This document shows, one piece after another, positions 5,838 to 60,685 of a stretch of DNA of 64,000 nucleotides. Origin of the DNA: Pseudomonas poae (GTDB lineage Bacteria; Pseudomonadota; Gammaproteobacteria; Pseudomonadales; Pseudomonadaceae); the NCBI GenBank assembly GCA_004000515.1, contig CP034537.1, positions 5,780,001-5,844,000 of the forward strand, written 5' to 3'. Position numbers and translations under genes: made by a program. The notes below the pieces were generated by a model that was not told where the DNA came from, did not search any database, and saw nothing but the letters and a program-made list of their open reading frames with translations. Positions within the stretch are counted from its first letter, which is position 1. The number at the start of each line of letters is the position of its first letter.

Positions 5838-8222
5838 ATGGCAAAGCATCCTCAACCCACCCAGCACTGGCGCGCCGCCACCCTCGCCTGCAGCCTGCTC
5901 ATGGGCGCAGTGCCGGCGTATGCGGCACCGGCCCCGGGCACCTCGGTCGATAAGCTGTCGCTGAACATCCCGGCCCAACAACTGCGCCAGGCCTTGTTGG
6001 TGTTCAGCCAGCAATCCGGGCAAAACGTGCTGCTGGACGGCAACCTCGACAGCGCCCTGCGCAGCTCGACGGTGGCGGGTGTGTATTCGCCGGAACAGGC
6101 CCTGGCCGAATTGCTCAAAGGCAGCGGCTACAGCTTTTCGCGTACCGATGCGGTAACCCTGTACCTGGTGCCGTTGCCTAAGCAAGCGGACAACATGACC
6201 TTGCCGGCCATCCACATTCAGGACTATGCCGGGCAGGACGGTGGCCCAAGCGTCGGCTACCAGGGCAAGCCGAAGTCCACCACCACCAAGCTCGGCCTCA
6301 CCGACCAGCAAACCCCGCAAGCCGTCACCGTGGTAACCCGCGAGCAAATGGACGACTTCAAGCTCAACAGCGTGAAAGAAGCCCTGCGCAGCGCTCCTTC
6401 GGTGACCGTGGAGCAATTCGAAACCGACCGCACCGCCTTCACTTCCCGTGGCTTCAAGATCGAAAATTTCGAGTTCGACGGCATGGGCTTGCCCTTCTCC
6501 GGCGGCGTGCTGGTGGGCGAGCAGGACATGACCGAGTTCGAACAGGTCGACGTGTTGCACGGCGCCAACGGCTTGATGAGCGGTGCCGGCGACCCCTCGG
6601 CCACCGTCAACCTGGTGCGCAAGCGCCCCACCGACACCTTCCAGGCCCGCATCGATGCCAGCGGCGGCTCCTGGGATAACCGGCGCCTGGCCCTGGACGT
6701 ATCCGGCCCGCTGACCGACAGCGGCAACGTGCGCGGGCGCTTTATCACCTCCACGACAAGGGCAATTCCTACCTCGACAACTACAGCCACGAAGTCAACG
6801 TGATGGCGGGTTTGTTGGCCTTCGACCTGTCCGATGCCGACACCCTCACCGTGGGCTTTTCCCAGCAGGACAGCTATTCCAACGGCAGCACCTGGGGCGG
6901 CCTGCCGATTGCCGACTACGCTGGCAACCGCATCCACTACAGCGACCGTAGCGCCAGCGTCGGCCAGCCGTGGACCTACTGGAATATCCAGACCCAACGC
7001 GCCTTCGCCGAACTGGTCCATGCCTTCGACAACGGTTGGACCAGCACCCTCACCGTGTCCGGCATGAGCCAGCACTCCGACACCAAAATGCTCTACGCCA
7101 TACCGATCAGCGCCAGCACCGTCGCCGCGTACATCAACCGCACCACCAGCACCGAGCATCAAGTGGCAGCCGAAGGGCAACTGTCCGGGCCTTTCAACTT
7201 CCTGGGCCGTGAACATCAACTGACCCTCGGCGCCAACTACGGCCGCCTGCACCACACTGAACGAGGCCACTACAACTCCGCAGCGGGCAACCAGGTGGAA
7301 AGCCTCGCCGATGTACTGGCCGGCAATGTGGTGGAGCCAGCGATGAACTACACCGACGACCTCAACACCCAACTGTTCACCGACCGCCAGAAAAGCCTGT
7401 TCGCCGGCGCGCGTTTCAGCCTCACCGACGACCTGCACTGGATCGCCGGTGCGCGCATGCTCAGCGCTGATGGCGAAGGCATGGGCTACGGCTCGCCCCA
7501 CAACACCCGGGTGCACGGCAAAGTCACGCCGTACACGGGCCTGGTCTATGACCTAACCCCGCAGTGGAGTCTTTACACCAGCTGGACCGAGATCTTCAAA
7601 CCGCAATACCTGCGCAGCACTGCCGGCGGCATTATCGAGCCACTGGAAGGCAAGAGCATGGAAGTCGGCGTGAAAGGTCGCCTGCTGGATGAGCGCCTGG
7701 GCGTCACCGCCGCCGTGTTCAAGACCGAGCAACAGAACGTCGCCGAGGCCACCGGGGCCATCGTCAACGGCCAATACGTGTATCGCGGCGTGGATTACAA
7801 AAGCCGTGGCGTGGAGCTGGAAGCCAACGGTGAAGTCCTGCCCGGCGTGTCCCTGGCCGGCGGCTACACCTACGTGCACATCGAAGACAACAATGGCGAA
7901 AAAAGCCCGCCAGTACGTGCCCACTCACAGCGTGCGCGCCAGCCTGACCTACCGCCTGCCCGGCGTGCCCCAAGCCAAGATCGGCAGCCGTGTGCAATGG
8001 CAAAGCCACACCGAGGTCGACAGCAACAGCCGCGTGTATCAAAGCGCCTACGCCCTGGTGGACCTGATGGGCAGCTACGACTTCGACGAGCACTGGAGCA
8101 CCTCGCTGAACCTGAACAACGTCACCGACCAAAAGTACCTGCTGTCGCTGTACCAGGCTGCCGGCTCGACCAATTACGGCGCGCCGCGCAACCTTACCGC
8201 GTCAGTGACCTGGAAATACTGA
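5838..8222 (+). CDS. TonB-dependent siderophore receptor with STN signalling domain, two frameshifts
   Basis: An outer-membrane ferric-siderophore transducer. After a signal peptide (ACSLLMGAVPAYA) comes an STN domain (LSLNIPAQQLRQALLVFSQQ to about residue 110), a plug domain (TPQAVTVVTREQMDDFKLNS; DVLHGANGLMSG) and a 22-strand barrel ending in a C-terminal aromatic (SVTWKY). The frame breaks twice: near 6750-6757 (one base lost; the next segment reads HDKGNSYLDNYSHEVNVM) and at the A-run 7899-7904 (six A where five restore the frame). The STN domain and the sigma/FecR genes just upstream mark it as the receptor of that signalling system. The siderophore is unknown. Confidence 0.9.
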
Positions 8223-25679: not shown

Positions 25680-25868
25680 GCCTTGTGCCTGCTGGAATCG
25701 GTGGCTAGTCTGCGGTCCGTCACTGCCTATTCAGTGATCGGGTTTAGTCGCCCGGAATGACACAAGGCGCATGGTCACATGAAGTTTTATGGTGGCTGTG
25801 CGCAGGGCACCTTCGGGTGCGCCGGATTTGCTTGTGGCCGGTCGACTAACCTGCGTACAGCCGCCACC
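25680..25868 (+). ncRNA. Candidate structured RNA: several nested hairpins, no clear coding role
   Basis: A dense set of complementary segments lies here. GCCTTGTG (25680-25687) pairs with CACAAGGC (25761-25768). Inside that are TCACTG-6 nt-CAGTGA (25720-25737) and CGGG-8 nt-CCCG (25739-25754). Next, GGTGG-CTGTGCGCAGG (25791-25806) pairs with CCTGCGTACAG-CC-GCCACC (25850-25868), enclosing GCACC-TTCG-GGTGC, a UUCG-capped hairpin, and CCGG-N-CCGG. It lies directly before a remnant resembling small DUF6124/DUF3077-type Pseudomonas proteins. I have the impression that similar sequence recurs before such genes but cannot check. A short open frame across it (from ATG 25789) is probably spurious. 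Confidence 0.55.
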
Positions 25869-25877
25869 CTTCGTTAA

Positions 25878-51344: not shown

Positions 51345-51530
51345 CAAACGCGCACCTCAAACGTGCGTCGTTTCTACCCAGGTGACAGTTTTAAGGGCGT
51401 CGCTACCGCCGCAAAAACCAGGTTTTCCCTTTAGAAACATAAACATAAGGTTTATGGCCTGAAGCTTGCTTTTGAAACAGCGCCGCGCCTTGCGGTACTC
51501 GTTTCCCCCATCCCCTTGCGATGGGCGACC

Positions 51531-51599
51531 CAGCCTCAACGATGCGGCTGATGTCTCCAAGCGAAACGACTCACACATTCAGCCGACAGCGTCGTCGGT
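51531..51599 (+). promoter_or_regulatory. Candidate ANTAR-responsive leader RNA (two hexaloop hairpins)
   Basis: P1 (51531-51550): CAGCC and GGCTG arms, one U/C mismatch, then a C-G pair closing the hexaloop AACGAT. P2 (51582-51599): arms CCGAC and GTCGG plus an outer G-T pair close the hexaloop AGCGTC. Both loops have A at position 1 and G at position 4, the signature of RNA bound by ANTAR antiterminators. It lies 118 bp before the first transporter gene of an operon that encodes an AmiR-type ANTAR protein. A weak stem (CAGGC/GCCTG, 51609-51630) followed by CATTTCTT may be the controlled terminator. Control by AmiR is inferred. Confidence 0.6.
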
Positions 51600-51665
51600 A
51601 TGTGAAATCAGGCCCTCCTTCCCCTGCCTGCATTTCTTCCCAGACCTTTCCTCTTCCAGCGCACC

Positions 51666-51695
51666 GGCCCAAAGGCTGCGGTGGACGTTTGGGCC
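51666..51695 (+). promoter_or_regulatory. Leader hairpin just before the transporter operon ribosome-binding site
   Basis: GGCCCAAA and TTTGGGCC form a perfect 8-bp stem over a 14-nt loop, ending 7 bp before the Shine-Dalgarno CCAGGAG. There is no U tract after it, so it is probably not an intrinsic terminator by itself. The remaining leader from 51345 shows no gene. Confidence 0.5.
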
Positions 51696-51716
51696 TGGGT
51701 TCCAGGAGTCTTCCGA

Positions 51717-52954
51717 ATGGCTATGAATCGTCGTGCTTTCCTGCGTACGTCCGCTATTTCTGCTGCTGCATTGTCCACCTTGAGCTTGAAGAGCTTTTCG
51801 GCGTTTGCGGCCGATGACGCGATCAACATCGCCTCGCTCTACGACAACTCCGGTGGCCTGGACATTTATGGCAAGCCCATCGTCGACGCCCTCACCTTCG
51901 CCGTCGAAGAACTCAACGGCGCTGGCGGCCTGCTCGGTCGGCCGCTCAACCTGATCAAATACGACACCCAGTCGAACATGCAGCTCTACGCCCAATACGC
52001 CCAGCAGGCGGCCTCAAGGACCGCGCGGCGGTGGTGCATGCCGGTATTACCTCGGCATCGCGGGAAGTGGTGCGCCCGGTGCTCGACCGCTACAAGACCC
52101 TGTATTTCTACAACAACCAGTACGAAGGCGGCGTGTGTGACCGCAACGTGTTCGCCACCGGCGTCACCCCAGGCCAGACCGTGGAGAAGCTGGTGTCCCA
52201 TGTCACCAAAAAGTGGGGCAAGAAGGTCTACATCGTCGCGGCCGACTACAACTACGGGCAGATCGTCACCGCCTGGGTGAAGAAGTACGTCGAGCAAGCC
52301 GGTGGCGAAAGCGTGGGCATCGAGTTCTTCCCGCTGGACGTGACCAACTTCGGCGCCACCATCTCGAAGATCCAGGAGGCCAAGCCGGACTTCGTCTGGT
52401 CCGCCTTGGTGGGTGGCGCGCACATGTCGTTCTACCGCCAATGGAAAGCCGCAGGCATGACCGGCAAGTTGCCAATTGCCTCCACTACCTTCGCCGGTGG
52501 CAACGAGCACATCGTGCTCTCGCCAGAGGAATGCAACGGCATCCTGATCTGCCAGAACTATGTGCAGGAACTGGCCACGCCGCAGAACCGGGCGTTCGTC
52601 GAGCGTTTCCACAAACGCTTTGGCGCCGACTACCCCTACATCACCGAACTGGCCATGGGTGCCTACCAAGGCATGATGCTGTGGGCCGAAGGTGTGCGCC
52701 AAGCTGGCACGGTGGAACGCATGGCCGTGACCCAGGCCCTGGAAAAAGGCATCAGCCTGGACCTGCCCAGCGGCAAGGTCAGCGTTGACCCGGCCACCCA
52801 CCACTGCGTGCTCGACGTGCACATCGCCGAGGTGCGCGACCGCCGCCTGGAGGTGGTCGAGAGCTTCGCCCAGCAAGCGCCTTCGGACACCGCCGCCGTG
52901 TGCGACTTGGTGAAGAACCCGCGCGACGCCAAACAATACAGCATCGCGCTGTAA
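51717..52954 (+). CDS. Urea/amide ABC transporter substrate-binding protein, Tat-type signal, one frameshift
   Basis: About 413 residues of the Peripla_BP_5 family (UrtA/FmdD/AmiC-like). The N-terminus MAMNRRAFLRTSAISAAALS is a Tat signal, then NIASLYDNSGGLDIYGKPIV, GLLGRPLNLIKYDTQSNMQL, VVHAGITSASREVVRPVLDR, KTLYFYNNQYEGGVCDRNVF, HMSFYRQWKAAGMTGKLPIA and VKNPRDAKQYSIAL. One base is missing near 52010-52015 (QAALKDRAAVVHAG is expected). The start at 51717 fits AGGAG at 51704. It is the ligand receptor of the five-gene transporter; urea or a short-chain amide is likely, given the amidase gene downstream. Confidence 0.88.
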
Positions 52955-52964
52955 GGAGGCCGAC

Positions 52965-53833
52965 ATGGATTGGGCTGCCATTTTTCCCTGCAAATCGTGG
53001 GCGCCATCGCCACGCTGGTGCTGTTGAGCATCGGCCTGGCGGTGGTATTCGGGATGATGAAGATCATCAACCTGGCCCACGGTGAATTCATGATGCTCGG
53101 CGGTTACGTCGCCGTGCTCGCCACCCACCATCTGCATGTGCCCATCTGGATCTCGATCCTGGTGCTGGCGCCTTTGACCGTGGGGTTGTTCGGCATGCTG
53201 GTGGAGCGCCTGCTGGTGCGCCACCTGTACGGCCGCATGATCGACACCATGCTCGCCACCTGGGGCCTGAGCCTGGCCCTGACCGGCGCGGCCACCATGT
53301 TGTTTGGCAATACCACGGTGGGCATCAGCTCGCCGCTGCCAGGTATCAGCATCGGCGCGTATCAAACCAGCGGCTACGGCCTGTTTGTGATCGGCGTGGC
53401 CGTGGCCGTACTGCTGGGCATGTGGGCGCTGCTGCGCTTTACCCACTTTGGCCTATGTGCCCGCGCCACCATGCAAAACGCCAAGATGGCGGCGGCGTTG
53501 GGGGCCAATCCGGGGCGCATCTACAGCCTCACGTTTGGCCTGGGCGCGGCGCTGGCCGGCCTGGGTGGTGCGGTGTTGGCGCCGCTTACCGGGGTAATTC
53601 CGACCCTCGGCGCCAGTTATATCGCCAAGGCGTTTATCACCGTGATCGGCGGTGGCAGCGCCGTGATTACCGGCACCCTGACTGCTGCGAGTGGCTTTGG
53701 GGTGATCAGCCAGGTGGTGACGTTCTTCAGCACCCCGGTGTTCGGTGAAGTGGCATTGCTGCTGGCGGCCATTGTGTTGATCCGGGTTCTGCCCCAGGGC
53801 ATTACCGGTCGTTTCTTTCGGAGGGCGTTCTGA
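52965..53833 (+). CDS. Branched-chain/urea-type ABC permease (UrtB-like), one frameshift
   Basis: About 290 residues of the LivH/UrtB family. After MDWAAIF, one T is missing in the T5 run 52981-52985; then SLQIVGAIATLVLLSIGLAV, VFGMMKIINLAHGEFMMLGG (typical LivH motif), GATM-like TM segments and AALGANPGRIYSLTFGLGAA, GVIPTLGASYIAKAFITVIG. The ribosome-binding site AAGGAGG lies just upstream of ATG 52965. It overlaps the next permease by one base (TGATG). Confidence 0.9.
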
Positions 53834-54856
53834 TGCCTGTTGATACCCGCACCCTGCTACCGGTGCTCGGCTGCGTCCTGGCCGCCGTACTGGTGGCGGT
53901 CCTGCCGCAGTGGCTGGACCTGTTTACCTTATTGTCCCTGACCATCTACCTGGTGATGGCGCTGTTGGCCCTGAGCCTGGCGTTTATCTGGGGGTTCGGC
54001 GGCATCCTGTGCTTTGGCCAGGCGGCGTTTTTCGGCCTGGGGGCCTACGCCTATGCCATCGGTGTGCTGAATATCGGCGACAGCACCTGGCCGGTGTTAC
54101 TGGCCATCGCCGTACCGGCGCTGGTGGCGGCGGCCATGGGTTACTTCATGTTCTACGGCGGCATCAGTGACGTGTACCTGGGGGTGATTACCCTCGCGGT
54201 CACCTTGATTTTGTTCAATGTGATGAACTCCACGTCCGGCTCCGAGTACCACATCGGCAATGCCTTGCTCGGTGGCTTCAACGGCATCCCCGCGATTCCC
54301 ACGTTGAATGTGCCGTTCAACCCGGACCGTGTGCTGGAGCCGGAAACCCTGTTCCAGGTGATCGGCGGCGCGTTGATCCTCTGCTACCTGGGCCTGCGCG
54401 GGCTGCTCGCCAGTCGTTTCGGCAAGGTGGTGGTGGCGATTCGTGAAAACGAACAGCGCGCCGGTCTGCTGGGTTATGACACGCGCCTGCACAAGTTGAT
54501 CGTGTTCAGCCTCGGCGGCGGCATTGCCGGGTTGGCCGGCTGCCTGTTCGCCAACTGGGGGCTTTTGTCAGCCCTGGCGTGTTTGGCCTGGCGCAGTCGG
54601 CGCAGATCATCATCTGGGTGATTGTCGGCGGGCGCGGCACTTTGTTCGGGCCGATCCTGGCGTGCATCGGCATCCAGGCGCTGATGGCGCGGCTGGGAGA
54701 ACAGCAGCATGTGGACAGCGGCTTTGTACTGGGCCTGATCCTGCTGGTGTTTGTGATGCTGTTGCCACGGGGTTTGCTACCCACCCTAAGCAGCGGTGTA
54801 GCTCGAGTGTTCCAACGTCGCCCCATCCGTTGCCTACCCAGGAGCGTGCGCTATGA
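53833..54856 (+). CDS. Branched-chain/urea-type ABC permease (UrtC-like), two frameshifts
   Basis: About 341 residues of the LivM/UrtC family. Motifs are MALLALSLAFIWGFGGILCF, GQAAFFGLGAYAYAIGVLNI, SDVYLGVITLAVTLILFNVM and VVVAIRENEQRAGLLGYDTR. The G5 run 54557-54561 is one G short (NWGAFVSPGVFGLAQSAQII is expected). A second loss in the C4 run near 54820-54825 hides the natural end PHPLPTQERAL, whose TGA overlaps the start of the ATPase gene (ATGA at 54853). Confidence 0.88.
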
Positions 54857-55575
54857 GCCTGTTGCAAACCCAAGGCCTGGGCGTGAGCTTCGGCGGCGTG
54901 CATGCGGTTAAGGAGGTGGATTTCACCCTGGAAAGTGGCGAGCTGCGCTGCCTGATCGGGCCCAATGGTGCCGGTAAAAGCACGTTTTTCAAGATGCTCA
55001 GCGGCCAGCTCAAACCCACCCGTGGCGTGTGCCACTTCAAGGGCCAGCGTATTTCCGGGCTGGCGCCGCACAAAGTCGCCCAGCTCGGCATTGGGATCAA
55101 GACCCAAGCCCCCAGCGTGTTCGACGGTCTGGATGTGCTGGAAAACCTGCGCCTGGCCGCCAGTCGCCGACAATCACCTGGCGAGGCACGCGCCACCGCC
55201 GAAGAGACCCTGCAACGCATCGGCCTGAGCGAATTGCGCACGCGCCTGGTGGGCGACCTGGCCCACGGCCAACGCCAATGGGTGGAGCTGGGCATGATCC
55301 TCGCCTCACGCCCGGAGCTGGTATTGCTGGACGAACCGGCGGCCGGCATGACCTACCAGGAAGTGCGCAAGACCGCCGCGCTGATCAAGGAGATCAACGC
55401 CCACAGCACCGTGGTGGTGGTAGAGCACGACATGGAGTTCATCCGCTTGATCGCCGGCACCGTCACCGTGTTCAACCAAGGCGCGATCCTGGCCCAAGGC
55501 AGTTTTGCCGAAGTCACCCAAGACCCCGCCGTGCGCGAAGCCTACCTGGGCAAGCAGGAGATCAAACATGCTTGA
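54853..55575 (+). CDS. Branched-chain/urea-type ABC ATPase (UrtD/LivG-like)
   Basis: An intact 240-residue ATPase. Walker A is IGPNGAGKSTFFKMLSGQ, the LivG-type block is KTQAPSVFDGLDVLENLRLA, the signature is LAHGQRQWVELGMILASR, Walker B is LVLLDEPAAGMT and the switch VVVVEHDMEFIRLIAG. It overlaps both neighbouring genes by 4-8 bp, so the transporter genes are tightly coupled. Confidence 0.92.
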   Translation: MSLLQTQGLGVSFGGVHAVKEVDFTLESGELRCLIGPNGAGKSTFFKMLSGQLKPTRGVCHFKGQRISGLAPHKVAQLGIGIKTQAPSVFDGLDVLENLRLAASRRQSPGEARATAEETLQRIGLSELRTRLVGDLAHGQRQWVELGMILASRPELVLLDEPAAGMTYQEVRKTAALIKEINAHSTVVVVEHDMEFIRLIAGTVTVFNQGAILAQGSFAEVTQDPAVREAYLGKQEIKHA

Positions 55576-56271
55576 AGTCATCGGTTTATCCGCCGGTTAT
55601 GGCCGTATCCCTGTGTTGCGCGACATTCGCTTGAGCTGCGCTGCCAATACCTGCGTGGGCGTGCTGGGACGCAATGGCATGGGCAAGACCACCTTGCTGC
55701 GTGCGCTGATGGGGAAATTCCCGCCATGGCCGGCAGCCTGCATTTCGATGGCGAGGACTTGAGCCGCGCCGCCGCCCACCAGCGCGCCCGCGCCGGTATC
55801 GGCTACGTGCCCCAAGGTCGGCAGATTTTCCCGTTCCTGAGCGTGCGTGAAAACCTGCGCATGGGCTGCGTGAAGGACTTTGCCAAGGCCGACGCCACCA
55901 TCGAACGCATCCTCGCCTACTTCCCGCGCCTGCAACGCCTGCTCGACCAACCCGGTGGCGCGCTGTCCGGTGGTGAACAGCAACTGTTGGCCCTGGCTCG
56001 CTGCCTGTGCGGCGAGCCGAACATCATCCTGCTGGACGAGCCCACCGAAGGCATCCAGCCCTCGATCTGCGACGAAATCATCGAAACCCTGCAGCGCCTA
56101 CGAGTGGAACAAAACCTGGCGGTGATCCTGGTGGAACAGGACATTGAATTCTTGAGTGCCTTGTCCGACCGCATCCTGATCATCGAGAACGGCCAACTGG
56201 TGGACGAGGTCGACCCGGCCCACACCAGCGCCGAAGCCATCGCTGAGCGCTTCATGGGCTTTCATGCATAA
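55568..56271 (+). CDS. Branched-chain/urea-type ABC ATPase (UrtE/LivF-like), one frameshift
   Basis: About 234 residues. Walker A is LGRNGMGKTTLLRALMGKFP, then after one missing C near 55712-55714 MAGSLHFDGEDLSR, GIGYVPQGRQIFPFLSVREN (LivF-type motif), signature LSGGEQQLLALARCLCG, Walker B IILLDEPTEGIQPSICDEI and LVEQDIEFLSALSDRILIIE. It overlaps the preceding ATPase by 8 bp and ends 10 bp before the amidase gene. Confidence 0.9.
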
Positions 56272-56281
56272 GGAACCTGCT

Positions 56282-57796
56282 ATGTCGATTCAACGCCCTA
56301 CCCTGGCCGACCTCACCCAAGTCGGCCGCAGCCTTGGCCTGGAACTGGCCGAGCCGCTGCTGAATGAGTACGCACACATCCTCGAAGCCGTGTGGCAGGA
56401 CTACGACCGCCTCGACGCCATCGCCACCCCGCCCGCACCCCCACGCTACCCACGCGGCCCGGGCCAGGTGCCGACGGACAATCGCTACAACGCATGGTAC
56501 GTGCGCACGGATATCCAGGGCGCCGCCAGCGGCAACTGGCCGGCAAGCGCGTGGCGCTCAAGGACAATATCTGCCTGGCCGGTGTACCGATGATGAACGG
56601 CTCATCAACCTTGCACGGCTACGTGCCAGACATTGATGCCACCGTCGCCAGCCGCGTGCTGGACGCTGCTGGGCAAATCCTCGGCAAGGCCCATTGCGAG
56701 TTTTTTCTGTGTGTCGGGCAGCAGCCATACCAACGCCACCGGCGCGGTGCACAACCCGCGTAATCCGGGGCATTCCACCGGCGGTTCGTCGTCGGGCTGC
56801 GCCGCGTTGATTGCCGCCGGTGAAGTGGACCTGGGTATCGGCACCGACCAAGGCGGCTCGGTGCGCATCCCGGCGGCCTACTCCGGCATCTACGGCATGA
56901 AGCCGACCCACGGTTTGATCCCCTACACCGGCATCATGCCGATCGAAATGACCCTGGACCACGCCGGGATCATGAGCGCCAACCTGGCCGATAACGCCCT
57001 GTTGCTGGAGGTGCTGGCTGGCGCCGACGGGCTCGACCCACGCCAGGATCGCGTAGTACCGACCGAGGCCTACACCCAGGCGTTGGGCAAGGGCTGCAAG
57101 GGCTTGCGAATCGGGGTGGTGCGCGAAGGCTTCAGCCACGCCAACTCCGAGGCGGATGTGGATGCGGCGGTGCGGCGTGCTGCGGCGGTGTTCGAAGGCC
57201 TCGGCGCCAGGGTCGAGGAGATCTCGATTCCGCTGCACGCCCTGGGCCACGCGATCTGGACCCCCATTGCCGTGGAAGGCACCACCCAATTGCTGCGCGG
57301 CTACAATTACGGCTCGAACTGGAAAGGCCTGTATGTGGAAAGCCTGATGCGCGCCCAACAGGACTGGCAGAGCAAGGCCGGGCAATTTCCCCACGACCTT
57401 AAAACCTGCCTGCTGGCCGGCGGGTATGCCTACCAGCGCTTTGGCGGCCAGTACTACGCCAAGGCCCAGAACGCCGCCCGGCAACTGCGTGCGGCTTACG
57501 ACCAGCACTTGCAGGATTTCGACGTGTTGCTGATGCCCACCGTGCCGCTCAAGGCGCCCAAACTGCCCACAGCAGACGCTTCGCCCAGCGAGTGGGTGCA
57601 ACGGGCCCTGGAAATGAACGCCAACACCGCGCCGTTCGACGTGACCGGCCACCCTGCGCTGTCGATCCCCTGCGGGCTTGCCAGTGGCCTGCCAGTAGGC
57701 ATGATGCTGGTGGCGCGGGATTACGATGAAGCCATGCTGTACCAAGTGGCGCACGCGTTTGAACAACATATCGACTGGGAAAGCCTGACGTCATGA
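56282..57796 (+). CDS. Amidase (amidase-signature family), two frameshifts
   Basis: About 504 residues. The Ser-cisSer-Lys triad is visible: the Lys in [20 protein letters not shown], and the two Ser in [20 protein letters not shown] and [20 protein letters not shown]. It hydrolyses amides to acid plus ammonia. The frame breaks near 56525-56535 (one base short) and at the T6 run 56701-56706 (one T too many; [16 protein letters not shown] is expected). It lies between the transporter genes and amiC/amiR. The classical AmiE of P. aeruginosa is a nitrilase-family enzyme, so here the same regulators appear with an unrelated amidase. Confidence 0.9.
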
Positions 57797-58917
57797 GCAC
57801 CCCTGACTACAAAGTCGGCCTGCTGTTTTCCCAGAGCAGCCTCACCGCTGCCTCGGAAACCACCCAGGCCAATGCCACTCACCTGGCTATCGCCGAGGTC
57901 AACGACGCGGGCGGCATCCATGGCCGGTTGCTGGTGCCGGTAGATGGCCACCCCGGCGCCGAGCCTGCGGACTATCGCGACAGCGCCGTGCGCCTGTGTG
58001 ACGAACACCAGGTGCAAGTGCTGTTCGGTACTCATATGTCGAGCACGCGCAAAACCGTGCTGCCGGTGGTCGAGAGCCGTCGCCGCCTGCTGTTCTACCC
58101 CACGCTCTATGAAGGGTTTGAATACTCGCCGTGGTGTTATTACACCGGCTCGGCACCGAACCAGAACTCGGTGCAACTGGCGCGCTATGTACTGGAACAC
58201 TTCGGCAACCGCGTGCTGTTTGTTGGCGGTTCCTACGTGTACCCGTTCGAGTCCAACCGCATCATGCGCGAGCTGTTCGAACAGGCCGGCGGCGAAGTGG
58301 TGGACGAGATCTACCTACCGTTCCACGCCACCGCCGAAGACTTCGAACGGGTGATGCAACAGGCGCGGGCCACGGCACCGGATGCGATCTACTCGACCAT
58401 CGTCGGCAGCGATATCCCGGCGCTGCACCGGGCCTATCGCCAGGCTGGTTTCGATCCGGCGCGCATGCCCATCGTCAGCCTGGCCACCAACGAGGTGGAT
58501 GTATTGCGCATGAGCGCTGAAGAAGCCGAAGGGCATGTGTCGGCGGCGCCGTGGTTTTCCACCTTGCAGACGCCCGCCAGCCAAGCCTTCTTGGCGCGTT
58601 ATCGGGCGCGTTTTGGTGATGAAGCACCGCTGACAGCGGGGGCCGAAGCCGCGTATTTTCAGGTGCATCTGTTCGCCGAAGCAGCGCGGCGCGCAGAGGG
58701 TGGGTCTATCGAAGCACTGCGCCAGGCGTTGGCCGGTGCGCAGTTCGACGCGCCCCAGGGCCGCGTGCAGATCGACGCTGACACCCAACACACCTGGCTG
58801 TGGCCACGCATTGCCCGCCTGGACCACCAGCGCCGTTTCGAGCTGGTGGTGCACAGCGAGCAACCGGTCAAACCCAGCCCCTATATGGTCGACTACCAAC
58901 TGGAAGCGCAGCCATGA
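57793..58917 (+). CDS. amiC: AmiC-type amide-binding negative regulator
   Basis: An intact 374-residue protein of the Peripla_BP_5 family without a signal peptide (starts [20 protein letters not shown]), so it is cytoplasmic like AmiC of P. aeruginosa. Blocks are EPADYRDSAVRLCDEHQVQV, LFGTHMSSTRKTVLPVVESR, RLLFYPTLYEGFEYSPWCYY and VGGSYVYPFESNRIMRELFE. AmiC sequesters AmiR until an amide binds. It overlaps the amidase stop by ATGA and the amiR start by ATGA. Confidence 0.88.
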   Translation: MSTPDYKVGLLFSQSSLTAASETTQANATHLAIAEVNDAGGIHGRLLVPVDGHPGAEPADYRDSAVRLCDEHQVQVLFGTHMSSTRKTVLPVVESRRRLLFYPTLYEGFEYSPWCYYTGSAPNQNSVQLARYVLEHFGNRVLFVGGSYVYPFESNRIMRELFEQAGGEVVDEIYLPFHATAEDFERVMQQARATAPDAIYSTIVGSDIPALHRAYRQAGFDPARMPIVSLATNEVDVLRMSAEEAEGHVSAAPWFSTLQTPASQAFLARYRARFGDEAPLTAGAEAAYFQVHLFAEAARRAEGGSIEALRQALAGAQFDAPQGRVQIDADTQHTWLWPRIARLDHQRRFELVVHSEQPVKPSPYMVDYQLEAQP

Positions 58918-59521
58918 GCGGCAGCAGCGCACCTTCATTGCTGCGCGAACTCAAGGGCCTGCGCGTGCTGGTAATCCACCCGGTGGACGCCGAAGCCTGC
59001 GTGGTACTGGACCAGTTGCAGCGCATCGGCTGCATCGTCGAGCAATGCTGGCCGGTGCCTGCGCACTTGCCAGAGCACACCGACGTGGTGCTGCTGGCCG
59101 TGGAACTCAGCCAGCGCCTGAACACCCAGGCGTTGGTGGAAGGCCTCAGCGAACAGGCGCCGCCGATCATCGCCGTGGTCGGCTATGAGAACCCTTCGAT
59201 GCTGCAACTGGTACTGGAAACCCAGCCGGCCGCGGTCATCGAGCGCCCACTGCGGCCGTTCGGCCTGTTGACCCAACTGTTGATGGCCCGTGCCGCCTGG
59301 CGTGCGCGCATCGACATGCTGGCGCAACTGCGCAAGTTGCAGACCCGGCAACCGGCAGTCTCGAAGATTTCCATGGCCAAGGCCTTACTCATGGCGCGCC
59401 ACCGCATCGGTGAAAACGACGCCCACCGGCGCCTACAACGGGATGCCATGGCCAGCCGCACCAGCATGGAGGCGGTCGCGCAAACCATCATTGACGCGGG
59501 CCTGCCCCTCAACCTGAATAA
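58914..59521 (+). CDS. amiR: AmiR-type antitermination regulator with ANTAR domain, frameshift at its end
   Basis: About 200 residues. The N-terminus is a degenerate receiver (LKGLRVLVIHPVDAEACVVL; VIERPLRPFGLLTQLLMARA) without a clear phosphoacceptor. A coiled-coil linker follows, then the C-terminal ANTAR RNA-binding domain (KISMAKALLMARHRIGENDA, HRRLQRDAMASRTSMEAVAQ, TIIDAGLP). In the literal sequence the frame stays open into the dehydrogenase gene. Adding one C to the C4 run near 59504-59508 gives GLPPQPE and TAA at 59519-59521, with AGAGG before the next ATG, which looks natural. AmiR is expected to bind leader RNA; candidate sites are at 51531-51599. Confidence 0.85.
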
Positions 59522-59534
59522 GCAGAGGTTTTTC

Positions 59535-60685
59535 ATGCAAGCTTTCAATTTCAGCACCACCGCCCACCTGATCTGCGCCAGCGGCGCTGCCGCCCAACTG
59601 GCCGAACATTGCGCCGCCCGAGGCGCCCGTAACGTGCTGCTGGTGACCGACGCCGGCATCCTGCGCCATAAGCTGCTGGATTCGGTGTTGCCCGGCTTTG
59701 CCGCTGCCGATATCCATTTGCAGGTGTACAGCGACGTGCTCGCAGACCCCGCCGAAGAGCTGGTGCTAGCCGCCACTGAACAAGCGCGGGCCATGGGCGC
59801 CGACCTGATCGTCGGTTTCGGCGGCGGCAGCTCCATGGACACCGCCAAGCTGGTCGCTTACCTCGCCCACCCAATGCAGCGCCAGCGCTTGAGCGACATC
59901 TACGGCGTCAACCAGGCCAATGGCGCGCGCCTGCCACTGATCCAGGTACCCACCACCGCCGGCACAGGTTCGGAAGTCACGCCGATTTCCATCGTGACCA
60001 CCGCCACCGGCAAATCCGGCGTGGTGTCCCAGCAGTTGCTGCCGGACCTGGCGATTCTCGACGCGCAACTGACCGTCGGCCTACCCGGCCCGGTCACCGC
60101 CGCCACCGGCATCGACGCGATGGTGCACGCCATCGAGGCCTACACCAGCAAGTTGCGCAAAACCCGATCTCCGACCTGCTGGCCCGTGAAGCCTTGCGCC
60201 TGCTCAGCGCCAACCTGGAGCTGGCGGTACGCGAGCCACAGAACCTGGCGGCACGCCAAGCCATGTTGCTGGGCGCGTGCCTGGCCGGTCAGGCCTTCGC
60301 CAACGCGCCGGTGGCGGCGGTGCATGCGCTGGCGTATCCGTTGGGGATTACTTTCCACTTGCCCCATGGGCTGTCCAACGCGCTGGTGCTCAACCCGGTG
60401 CTGGCGTTCAACCTGTCCCACGCCAACGCGCTTTACGCGGAACTAGCGCCGTGTGTGCTGAGTGAGCGATTGGAAGAGGGAGATGGCGCGGCGCAGTTCA
60501 TTGCCGAGATGCAGCGCATCCACGTCGCAGTGGGTTTGCCGCTGCGCTTGAGAGATGCAGGCGTGACCCTGGAAAGCCTGCCAGAGTTGGCCCGCAGTGC
60601 GATGCAGCAACAGCGGCTACTGGTGAATAACCCGCGTGAGGTAAGTGAGGAGGATGCTTTGGCGATCTATACGGCGGCGTACTAG
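59535..60685 (+). CDS. Iron-containing alcohol dehydrogenase, one frameshift
   Basis: About 384 residues of the group III (Fe-ADH) family. It starts MQAFNFSTTAHLICASGAAA. The NAD site is ADLIVGFGGGSSMDTAKLVA and the metal site is TGIDAMVHAIEAYTS plus AVHALAYPLGITFHLPHGLS (His ligands). Other blocks are LPLIQVPTTAGTGSEVTPIS. The A4 run 60159-60162 is one A short (KLRKNPISDLLAREALRLLS is expected). It is the last gene of the amide operon. It may oxidise or reduce an alcohol/aldehyde formed from the amide or its acid, but no pathway is evident. Confidence 0.87.

Follow-up and report, generated by a model that had tools for sequence, protein, structure and literature searches.

Conserved dual-hexaloop RNA, probably an AmiR-type ANTAR target, in the leader of a transporter/amidase operon of Pseudomonas poae

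The leader of a Urt-like transporter/amidase operon of P. poae harbors two hexaloop hairpins, P1 and P2, which, judged from sequence comparison, very probably constitute an ANTAR target RNA of the AmiR type. Among homologous leaders, the compared sequences point to a conserved RNA structure, a tie to AmiR, a C-rich stretch behind the hairpins and no recognisable intrinsic terminator that overlaps P2 and is common to the relatives. In textbook ANTAR control an antiterminator is stabilised and excludes an intrinsic terminator. Since the usual terminator was not found here, a route other than the textbook one is probable.

Results

Two hexaloop hairpins precede an operon encoding AmiC and AmiR relatives

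In the window, i.e. the whole stretch of 64,000 nucleotides that was analysed, the leader spans positions 51345 to 51717 and contains P1 and P2; the leader and operon features described below are on the plus strand. The core of P1 (51531-51550) reads CAGCC-U-C(AACGAU)G-C-GGCUG, with the hexaloop at 51538-51543 and a pyrimidine-pyrimidine (U-C) mismatch just below the closing C-G pair. The hairpin is longer than this core, as GAC/GUC extends the stem outward to 51527-51555. P2 (51582-51599) reads GCCGAC(AGCGUC)GUCGGU and carries its loop at 51588-51593. Both stem-loops contain at least three pairs, and with two such elements the leader has the make-up of an ANTAR target RNA. The initial annotation had described two hairpins with paired stems, six-base loops and A and G at loop positions 1 and 4 (A1/G4), all of which was confirmed at these positions, the P1 mismatch and the outward extension being additions. 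Folding of the window predicted P1 and P2 with a probability of 0.95 or more each. The 31-nt linker between them, which places the loop starts 50 nt apart, had been regarded as long; for AmiR it is not odd, as similarly long spacings (loop starts 44-45 nt apart) were found in two amiE-type leaders. An Rfam search of the leader gave no match, either at the gathering score or with E as high as 5; elsewhere in the window, a C4 antisense RNA was recognized at 25785-25871 (RF01695, 83.8 bits).

Downstream of a Shine-Dalgarno region (CCAGGAGT, 51702-51709), the operon starts with a UrtA-like substrate-binding protein gene (51717-52954; PF13433/PF13458), followed by two UrtB/UrtC-like permeases (52970-54621; PF02653), two UrtD/UrtE-like ABC ATPases (54853-56271; PF00005), an amidase (56264-57796; PF01425), an amiC-like ligand sensor (57793-58917), amiR (58914-59534, the end being approximate because its frame continues into the following gene) and an iron-containing alcohol dehydrogenase (59535-60685; PF00465). 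The AmiR_N and ANTAR domains of AmiR pass the Pfam cut-offs, and the solved P. aeruginosa AmiC and AmiR chains were matched at E 1.5e-90 (1pea_A) and E 7.4e-25 (1qo0_D), respectively. An AmiC/AmiR regulator pair, with AmiR_N plus ANTAR domains in one protein and an AmiC relative in the same operon, is thus present. amiR starts 7383 bases after P1, in agreement with the annotated position of amiC and an ANTAR-bearing AmiR about 7.4 kb downstream; the dehydrogenase gene comes after amiR. Frames of the substrate-binding protein, a permease, an ATPase, the amidase and the alcohol dehydrogenase are broken within 51717-60685, either by assembly errors or by decay, and all are intact in the related locus L001. 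The relative's intact operon encodes UrtABCDE-like proteins (below curated cut-offs; the substrate-binding protein resembles UrtA models), an amidase above cut-off (NF005565), AmiC, AmiR and an iron-type alcohol dehydrogenase. Between the predicted transcription start and the first gene no gap relative to L001 was found.

The hairpin pair co-occurs with AmiR

Homologous loci were collected in one scan with the substrate-binding protein, from which the best 80 of 189 were surveyed. In these 80, the dual motif was detected upstream of the first gene in 36 loci (17 Pseudomonas, 6 Burkholderiales and 13 Enterobacterales), and an AmiR relative was encoded downstream in the same direction in 39. The motif was present in 35/39 loci with AmiR downstream versus 0/40 without (Fisher p 2.5e-18, kinship ignored), several of the 40 lying on short contigs. 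The motif-bearing locus L009 was excluded from this table, as its contig ends before amiR could appear. Two loci counted as lacking AmiR, L055 and L056, encode a relative upstream instead, and the exceptions with AmiR downstream but no hairpin pair are L023, L042, L054 (P2 only) and L078. Read by eye, a loop AACTGG in L078, from Hoeflea, is similar to the amiE-type P2 loop. In the Enterobacterales locus L040 an AmiR_N-ANTAR protein directly follows the ATPases, and in the remaining 13 Enterobacterales loci tblastn located an AmiR relative at roughly that distance. A separate AmiC match was found by tblastn in none of the 14 (L036, L038-L041, L043, L047-L050, L053, L054, L057, L061); AmiC-like matches in six such genomes were 27-35% identical, which is the order seen for transporter proteins.

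A covariance-model search had been suggested as a check, and a model of P1-P2 gave a single strong match in its own genome, namely this leader, at 59.7 bits with the next match at 19.6 (150 of 5445 first-look candidates scored). Among 199 genomes of the same genus, 22 of which have an above-cut-off AmiR_N match, seven matches above 40 bits were obtained, all in genomes of this AmiR_N-positive group. This test is not independent, as the window, L011 and L138 were among the sequences used to build the model and four of the seven matches are records of L007, L011, L013 and L016; the only new one lies in genome G051 (L113, 43.6 bits). The noise level is set by a 30.6-bit match inside an unrelated gene in G045.

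From position 7994 onward, L113 carries a dual hexaloop with a C-C mismatch directly before amiC-amiR, without transporter genes and with a short U run after P2. Other Pseudomonas amiC-amiR operons (L114-L120) may have a related leader, with a CAGGC/GCCTG-like hairpin after P2 seen by eye, the 3' arm of which might double as the beginning of a terminator hairpin (CTGAG..CTCAG with a U-rich tail).

Stems are maintained by paired substitutions

For the detection of hairpin pairs, A1, G4, a closing C-G pair and at least 9 pairs in all were demanded (the real pair has 12), and one mismatch at no fixed position was tolerated. Pairs that satisfied this rule arose in 5/3000 dinucleotide shuffles of the window leader and in 5, 0 and 17 of 3000 shuffles of three other leaders. 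A hand-made table was compiled from 26 P1 and 21 P2 rows picked by eye against repeats. Own arms paired in 124/156 P1 cells and 119/126 P2 cells, and 0/5000 swaps did as well. A1 and G4 occurred in all 26 P1 and all 21 P2 rows, although the scan itself required them. The second pair of P1 opposes two pyrimidines in 24/26 rows (C-C 11, C-U 9, U-C 4) with neighbouring pairs kept; in P2 such a mismatch was seen in 4/21 rows. In nas and amiE-type leaders P1 is paired at this place. We tentatively propose the conserved P1 mismatch as a mark of this leader class; in the available part of the ANTAR paper PMC8164766 the word 'mismatch' does not occur.

RNAalifold of 15 Pseudomonas leaders yielded five helices, P0, Pa, P1, P2 and P3. 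The set was drawn from 20 leaders after removal of the near-duplicates L001, L002, L012, L016 and L139, the last being a record of L012. Pair by pair, 97.2% of 565 cells were paired and both sides had changed at 12/38 pairs, which was reached by 0/500 shuffles. As the leaders are related, shuffle counts in this study are not to be read as probabilities. P0 is a long-range helix between UCGUUUC (51499-51505) and GAAACGA (51563-51569) that encloses Pa and P1 (99.0% of cells paired, double changes at 2/7 pairs). The Pa hairpin lies at 51507-51525 (91.0%, double changes at 3/6 pairs), and P3, GAAAUCAGGC/GCCUG-c-AUUUC at 51604-51636, follows directly after P2 (98.7%, double changes at 3/10 pairs). 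A further hairpin was predicted by minimum free energy at the 5' end of the RNA (51483-51495) and was also seen by eye, with different letters, in L011 and L138.

P2 is near-invariant within Pseudomonas, so that covariation there speaks neither for nor against it. When 22 leaders representing three orders were compared, P1 and P2 together showed 37 double-change cells versus 11.8 in shuffles, and 0/500 shuffles were as high; weaker measures on the same leaders gave 8 pairs with double changes (reached by 19/500 shuffles) and 16 further pair types (46/500). The paired substitutions that the initial annotation had asked for in aligned leaders were therefore found, with stems covarying across Pseudomonas, Burkholderiales and Enterobacterales. 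Three further pairings were considered and rejected. A third hexaloop between P1 and P2, GUGA(AGCGAC)UCAC-like, overlaps P0, and its stem is, by eye, not kept elsewhere, which argues against a general part; a similar sequence was found in 6/17 Pseudomonas loci (L004, L006, L009, L010, L013, L030). Pairing of the P1 and P2 arms with each other is feasible in the window, but was unconserved by eye, as was the P2 extension CACAU/AUGUG.

A sigma-54-type promoter is predicted upstream of P1

Promoter patterns were counted in 38 leaders, comprising the window, 36 loci and L138. The window has TGGCCTGAAGCTTGCT at 51455-51470 (-24/-12), which places the predicted start near 51481, and a GCAC-N7-GTGC palindrome at 51352-51366. 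They correspond to two patterns: TGG[CT]-N7-[TC]TGC, which we take to be of the sigma-54 type, and GCAC-N7-GTGC, presumably an NtrC-like site. The former was found within 220 nt upstream of P1 in 32/38 leaders against 0.07 expected per 220 nt, and was not found in that interval in L011, L012, L018, L019, L021 and L022; in L017 and L020 it sits elsewhere and may be due to chance. The palindrome occurred within 420 nt upstream of P1 in 24/38 leaders. Relative to P1, the sigma-54-type pattern lies at -73 to -80 in Pseudomonas and at -26 to -30 in Enterobacterales, so that transcription is expected to start about 50 nt or 0-4 nt, respectively, before the P1 core, and P1 would be inside the transcript in both. 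In the available part of a published survey (PMC12316311), 66 sigma-54 promoters are predicted for genes of the ANTAR-domain COG, which fits this pattern. The sequences suggest nitrogen control on top of an AmiR switch.

No common intrinsic terminator overlapping P2 was found

Hairpins followed by a U tail were searched for with a simple scan in 30 leaders. An intrinsic terminator overlapping P2 and common to the relatives was not found in them, and 16/30, including the window, had no terminator-like candidate at all. The other 14 had scattered candidates: those reaching P2 (L008, L036, L039, L048) were weaker than the controls and not common to relatives, a weak one just before the Shine-Dalgarno sequence is shared by four Pseudomonas leaders (L004, L006, L010, L030), L020 and L022 share one between P1 and P2, and L039, L048 and L057 share one at the start of the coding region. 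In L020 and L022, both from Achromobacter, a U run follows a possible hairpin involving P1 and could be a terminator at another place. As positive controls, P2-overlapping terminators were recovered in the nas leader of the same genome (-34.6 kcal/mol; tail threshold lowered from 2.2 to 2.0) and two amiE-type leaders (-28.9 and -25.6 kcal/mol). The AmiR proteins that belong to these two amiE-type leaders share 88% and 77% identity with the P. aeruginosa chain.

CAGGC/GCCTG, which had been annotated as a weak terminator, proved to be the top of the longer, covarying hairpin P3 and is not recognisable as a terminator. Pairing in P3 is kept through changes in its G-C and A-U parts, while the U-run is not conserved (e.g. 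CAUUCCCC in L015). Among the 30 leaders, only two passed the terminator search at P3: L009, and L008 with a longer form of the hairpin. In most other leaders a hairpin is found near the place of P3 (mean z -1.8; 17/26 below -1), which is weak or different in L047, L049 and L053.

Predicted folding, the numbers of which depend on the stretch that is folded, gave a P2 probability of 0.00 in the three control leaders, as there the terminator wins. Over 27 leaders of the group, the third pair of P2 had a mean probability of 0.82 and reached at least 0.90 in 21; six (L011, L017, L018, L039, L061, L138) were below 0.6. When folding extended as far as the coding region, the cost of forming P1 and P2 was at most 0.5 kcal/mol in 18/19 Pseudomonas leaders and 1.7 in L015. 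With both hairpins preformed at such low cost, AmiR need not refold P2 in Pseudomonas. In Burkholderiales and many Enterobacterales, P1 was often not formed alone and the cost was higher. Together with the six low P2 values, this means that some leaders of the group may switch between folds, and in Burkholderiales and many Enterobacterales a switch at P1 appears possible from these models.

A C-rich, G-poor stretch follows P2

The 60 nt after P2 (51605-51664) contain 27 C and 7 G, and only 0.1% of 60-nt segments in the 64 kb are as C-skewed. The skew after P2 ranks among the highest 5% of its locus in 32/38 leaders versus 6/43 comparison regions, which were taken before the same gene in 43 of 44 loci without the motif and lie in many cases within upstream coding sequence. 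Burkholderiales and some Enterobacterales are less C-rich here, and the skew is absent from the three leaders with intrinsic terminators (nas and two amiE-type). Rho prefers C-rich, G-poor RNA, and it is from this stretch that a Rho loading region is proposed; P3 falls within it, and composition alone is no proof of Rho loading.

Discussion

Taken together, the explanation that we favor, with roughly even odds in our view, combines an AmiR-type target RNA with a mechanism that differs from the known one and has Rho as its likely last step. The initial annotation had proposed amide-controlled antitermination of the whole operon and had allowed for a deviating mechanism. Of this proposal, the ANTAR-type target before a Urt-like transporter/amidase operon encoding AmiC and AmiR stands, while the intrinsic terminator at CAGGC/GCCTG does not. 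Neither an overlapping terminator exclusive with P2 nor a short, eut-like linker of 5-12 nt, as known from ANTAR intrinsic-terminator attenuators, was found in this leader. That AmiR binds, that amide is the signal, that Rho takes part and in which direction control runs is what we infer from the comparison.

Relief of Rho-dependent termination by bound AmiR is our leading guess for the mechanism, at somewhat less than even odds. Nitrogen shortage would start transcription from the sigma-54 promoter near 51455, and the new RNA would fold unaided into P0/Pa/P1, P2 and P3. When amide is missing, AmiC would hold AmiR and the transcript would end early in the C-rich leader, most likely via Rho. 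When amide is present, freed AmiR would bind the loops of P1 and P2 and form a protein obstacle to Rho, and polymerase would then read through the transporter, amidase, amiC and amiR genes, resulting in positive feedback. The full form of this proposal, in which preformed hexaloops dock AmiR without any RNA fold being switched, the Rho loading region is shielded and the whole operon is gated by amide and nitrogen in three orders, is slightly more tentative. A link between ANTAR proteins and Rho-dependent termination is not mentioned in the available part of the review PMC4347634.

Classical antitermination would instead require that P3 is a weak intrinsic terminator, the folding of which is hindered by AmiR on P1 and P2. 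P3 starts 5 nt after the last P2 base, its stem is conserved, a U-containing tail is present in the window (GAAAUCAGGC/GCCUGcAUUUC, then UUCC) and P3 passed the search in L009 and, as a longer hairpin, L008. However, L015 and L011 have lost the U-run but preserve the stem through double changes, P3 has no arm in common with P2, 28/30 leaders including the window fail the search, and nearby hairpins in Achromobacter (L020, L022) and in Enterobacterales such as L036 lack a U tail, so that we regard this reading as rather unlikely. Quite improbable, in our estimate, is translational control, in which bound AmiR would make the start region of the first gene more or less accessible. Forcing P1 and P2 raised the predicted access of the Shine-Dalgarno site by at least 0.1 in only 2/37 leaders (L018, L036) and lowered it in one (L015), the site not being found in L017 among the 38, and in the window about 118 nt separate P2 from the start codon. 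In its favor, a stretch following P1 in L036 is able to pair with the Shine-Dalgarno sequence, and access rose there from 0.00 to 0.26; L038 and L040 show similar pairing, and in all three the site could be sequestered when P1 is unformed. The available text of PMC8164766 reports actinobacterial ANTAR targets that overlap start regions. A possible long-range helix P4 near the Shine-Dalgarno sequence in Pseudomonas (permutation p 0.015, 17 leaders) gave a mixed picture.

Preformed hairpins near the predicted 5' end would also suit an action of bound AmiR on decay or another process, such as transcript stability or sequestration of AmiR by the RNA. This would leave the C-rich stretch after P2 unexplained, and we give it a slim chance. 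That the hairpins arose by chance and have no function is hardly credible: the small size of the motif is all that speaks for it, and covariation, co-occurrence with AmiR and the single strong genome match contradict it.

The leader resembles several known systems. The amiE leader of the P. aeruginosa amidase operon resembles it in its AmiR and AmiC relatives and two upstream hairpins. The two amiE-type leaders differ from the window in a strong terminator whose 5' arm is the 3' arm of P2, and they lack the C-rich stretch. The loops of amiE are generally given as A1/G4; by eye, the P2 loop of the amiE-type leaders L152 and L134 is AAATGG, with G at position 5 in the register read. A textbook dual hexaloop is present in the nas leader of this genome (L124, G000:C1:3211000-3224000, around 7676 on the reverse strand). 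Such nas leaders, associated with NasT/NasR, share dual A1/G4 hexaloops and, by eye, a sigma-54-like sequence with the window, whereas the loop starts of L124 are only 23 nt apart and the terminator described above overlaps P2. Enterococcus EutV targets likewise have dual A1/G4 hexaloops with sequence-conserved closing pairs; unlike the window, they have linkers of 5-12 nt and overlapping terminators, and a linker of 14 nt strongly reduced induction, while an additional 20 nt abolished antitermination in vitro (PMC3369931, PMC8934654, as far as these texts were available).

That ANTAR targets have dual hexaloops with A1/G4 and overlapping terminators is documented in the accessible portions of PMC3369931, PMC3369936 and PMC8934654. 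According to the available part of PMC3369931, a genome search of 2012 had ANTAR target matches in Pseudomonas and Burkholderia, and a wider second run, also screened for terminators, gave matches upstream of urea transporters, as in the window. In its first search, a P2-overlapping terminator accompanied about 30% of the matches from ANTAR-encoding organisms, and many predicted targets lacked such a terminator (same portion of PMC3369931). The available text of PMC13209695 describes a plasmid on which an amidase operon also encodes AmiC, AmiR and an ABC transporter.

The operon described here offers a clean test case: it encodes the protein itself, its RNA is maintained across three orders, and the genome supplies an internal control in its classical nas leader. 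Should Rho be involved, ANTAR proteins would thereby possess a second means of controlling transcription.
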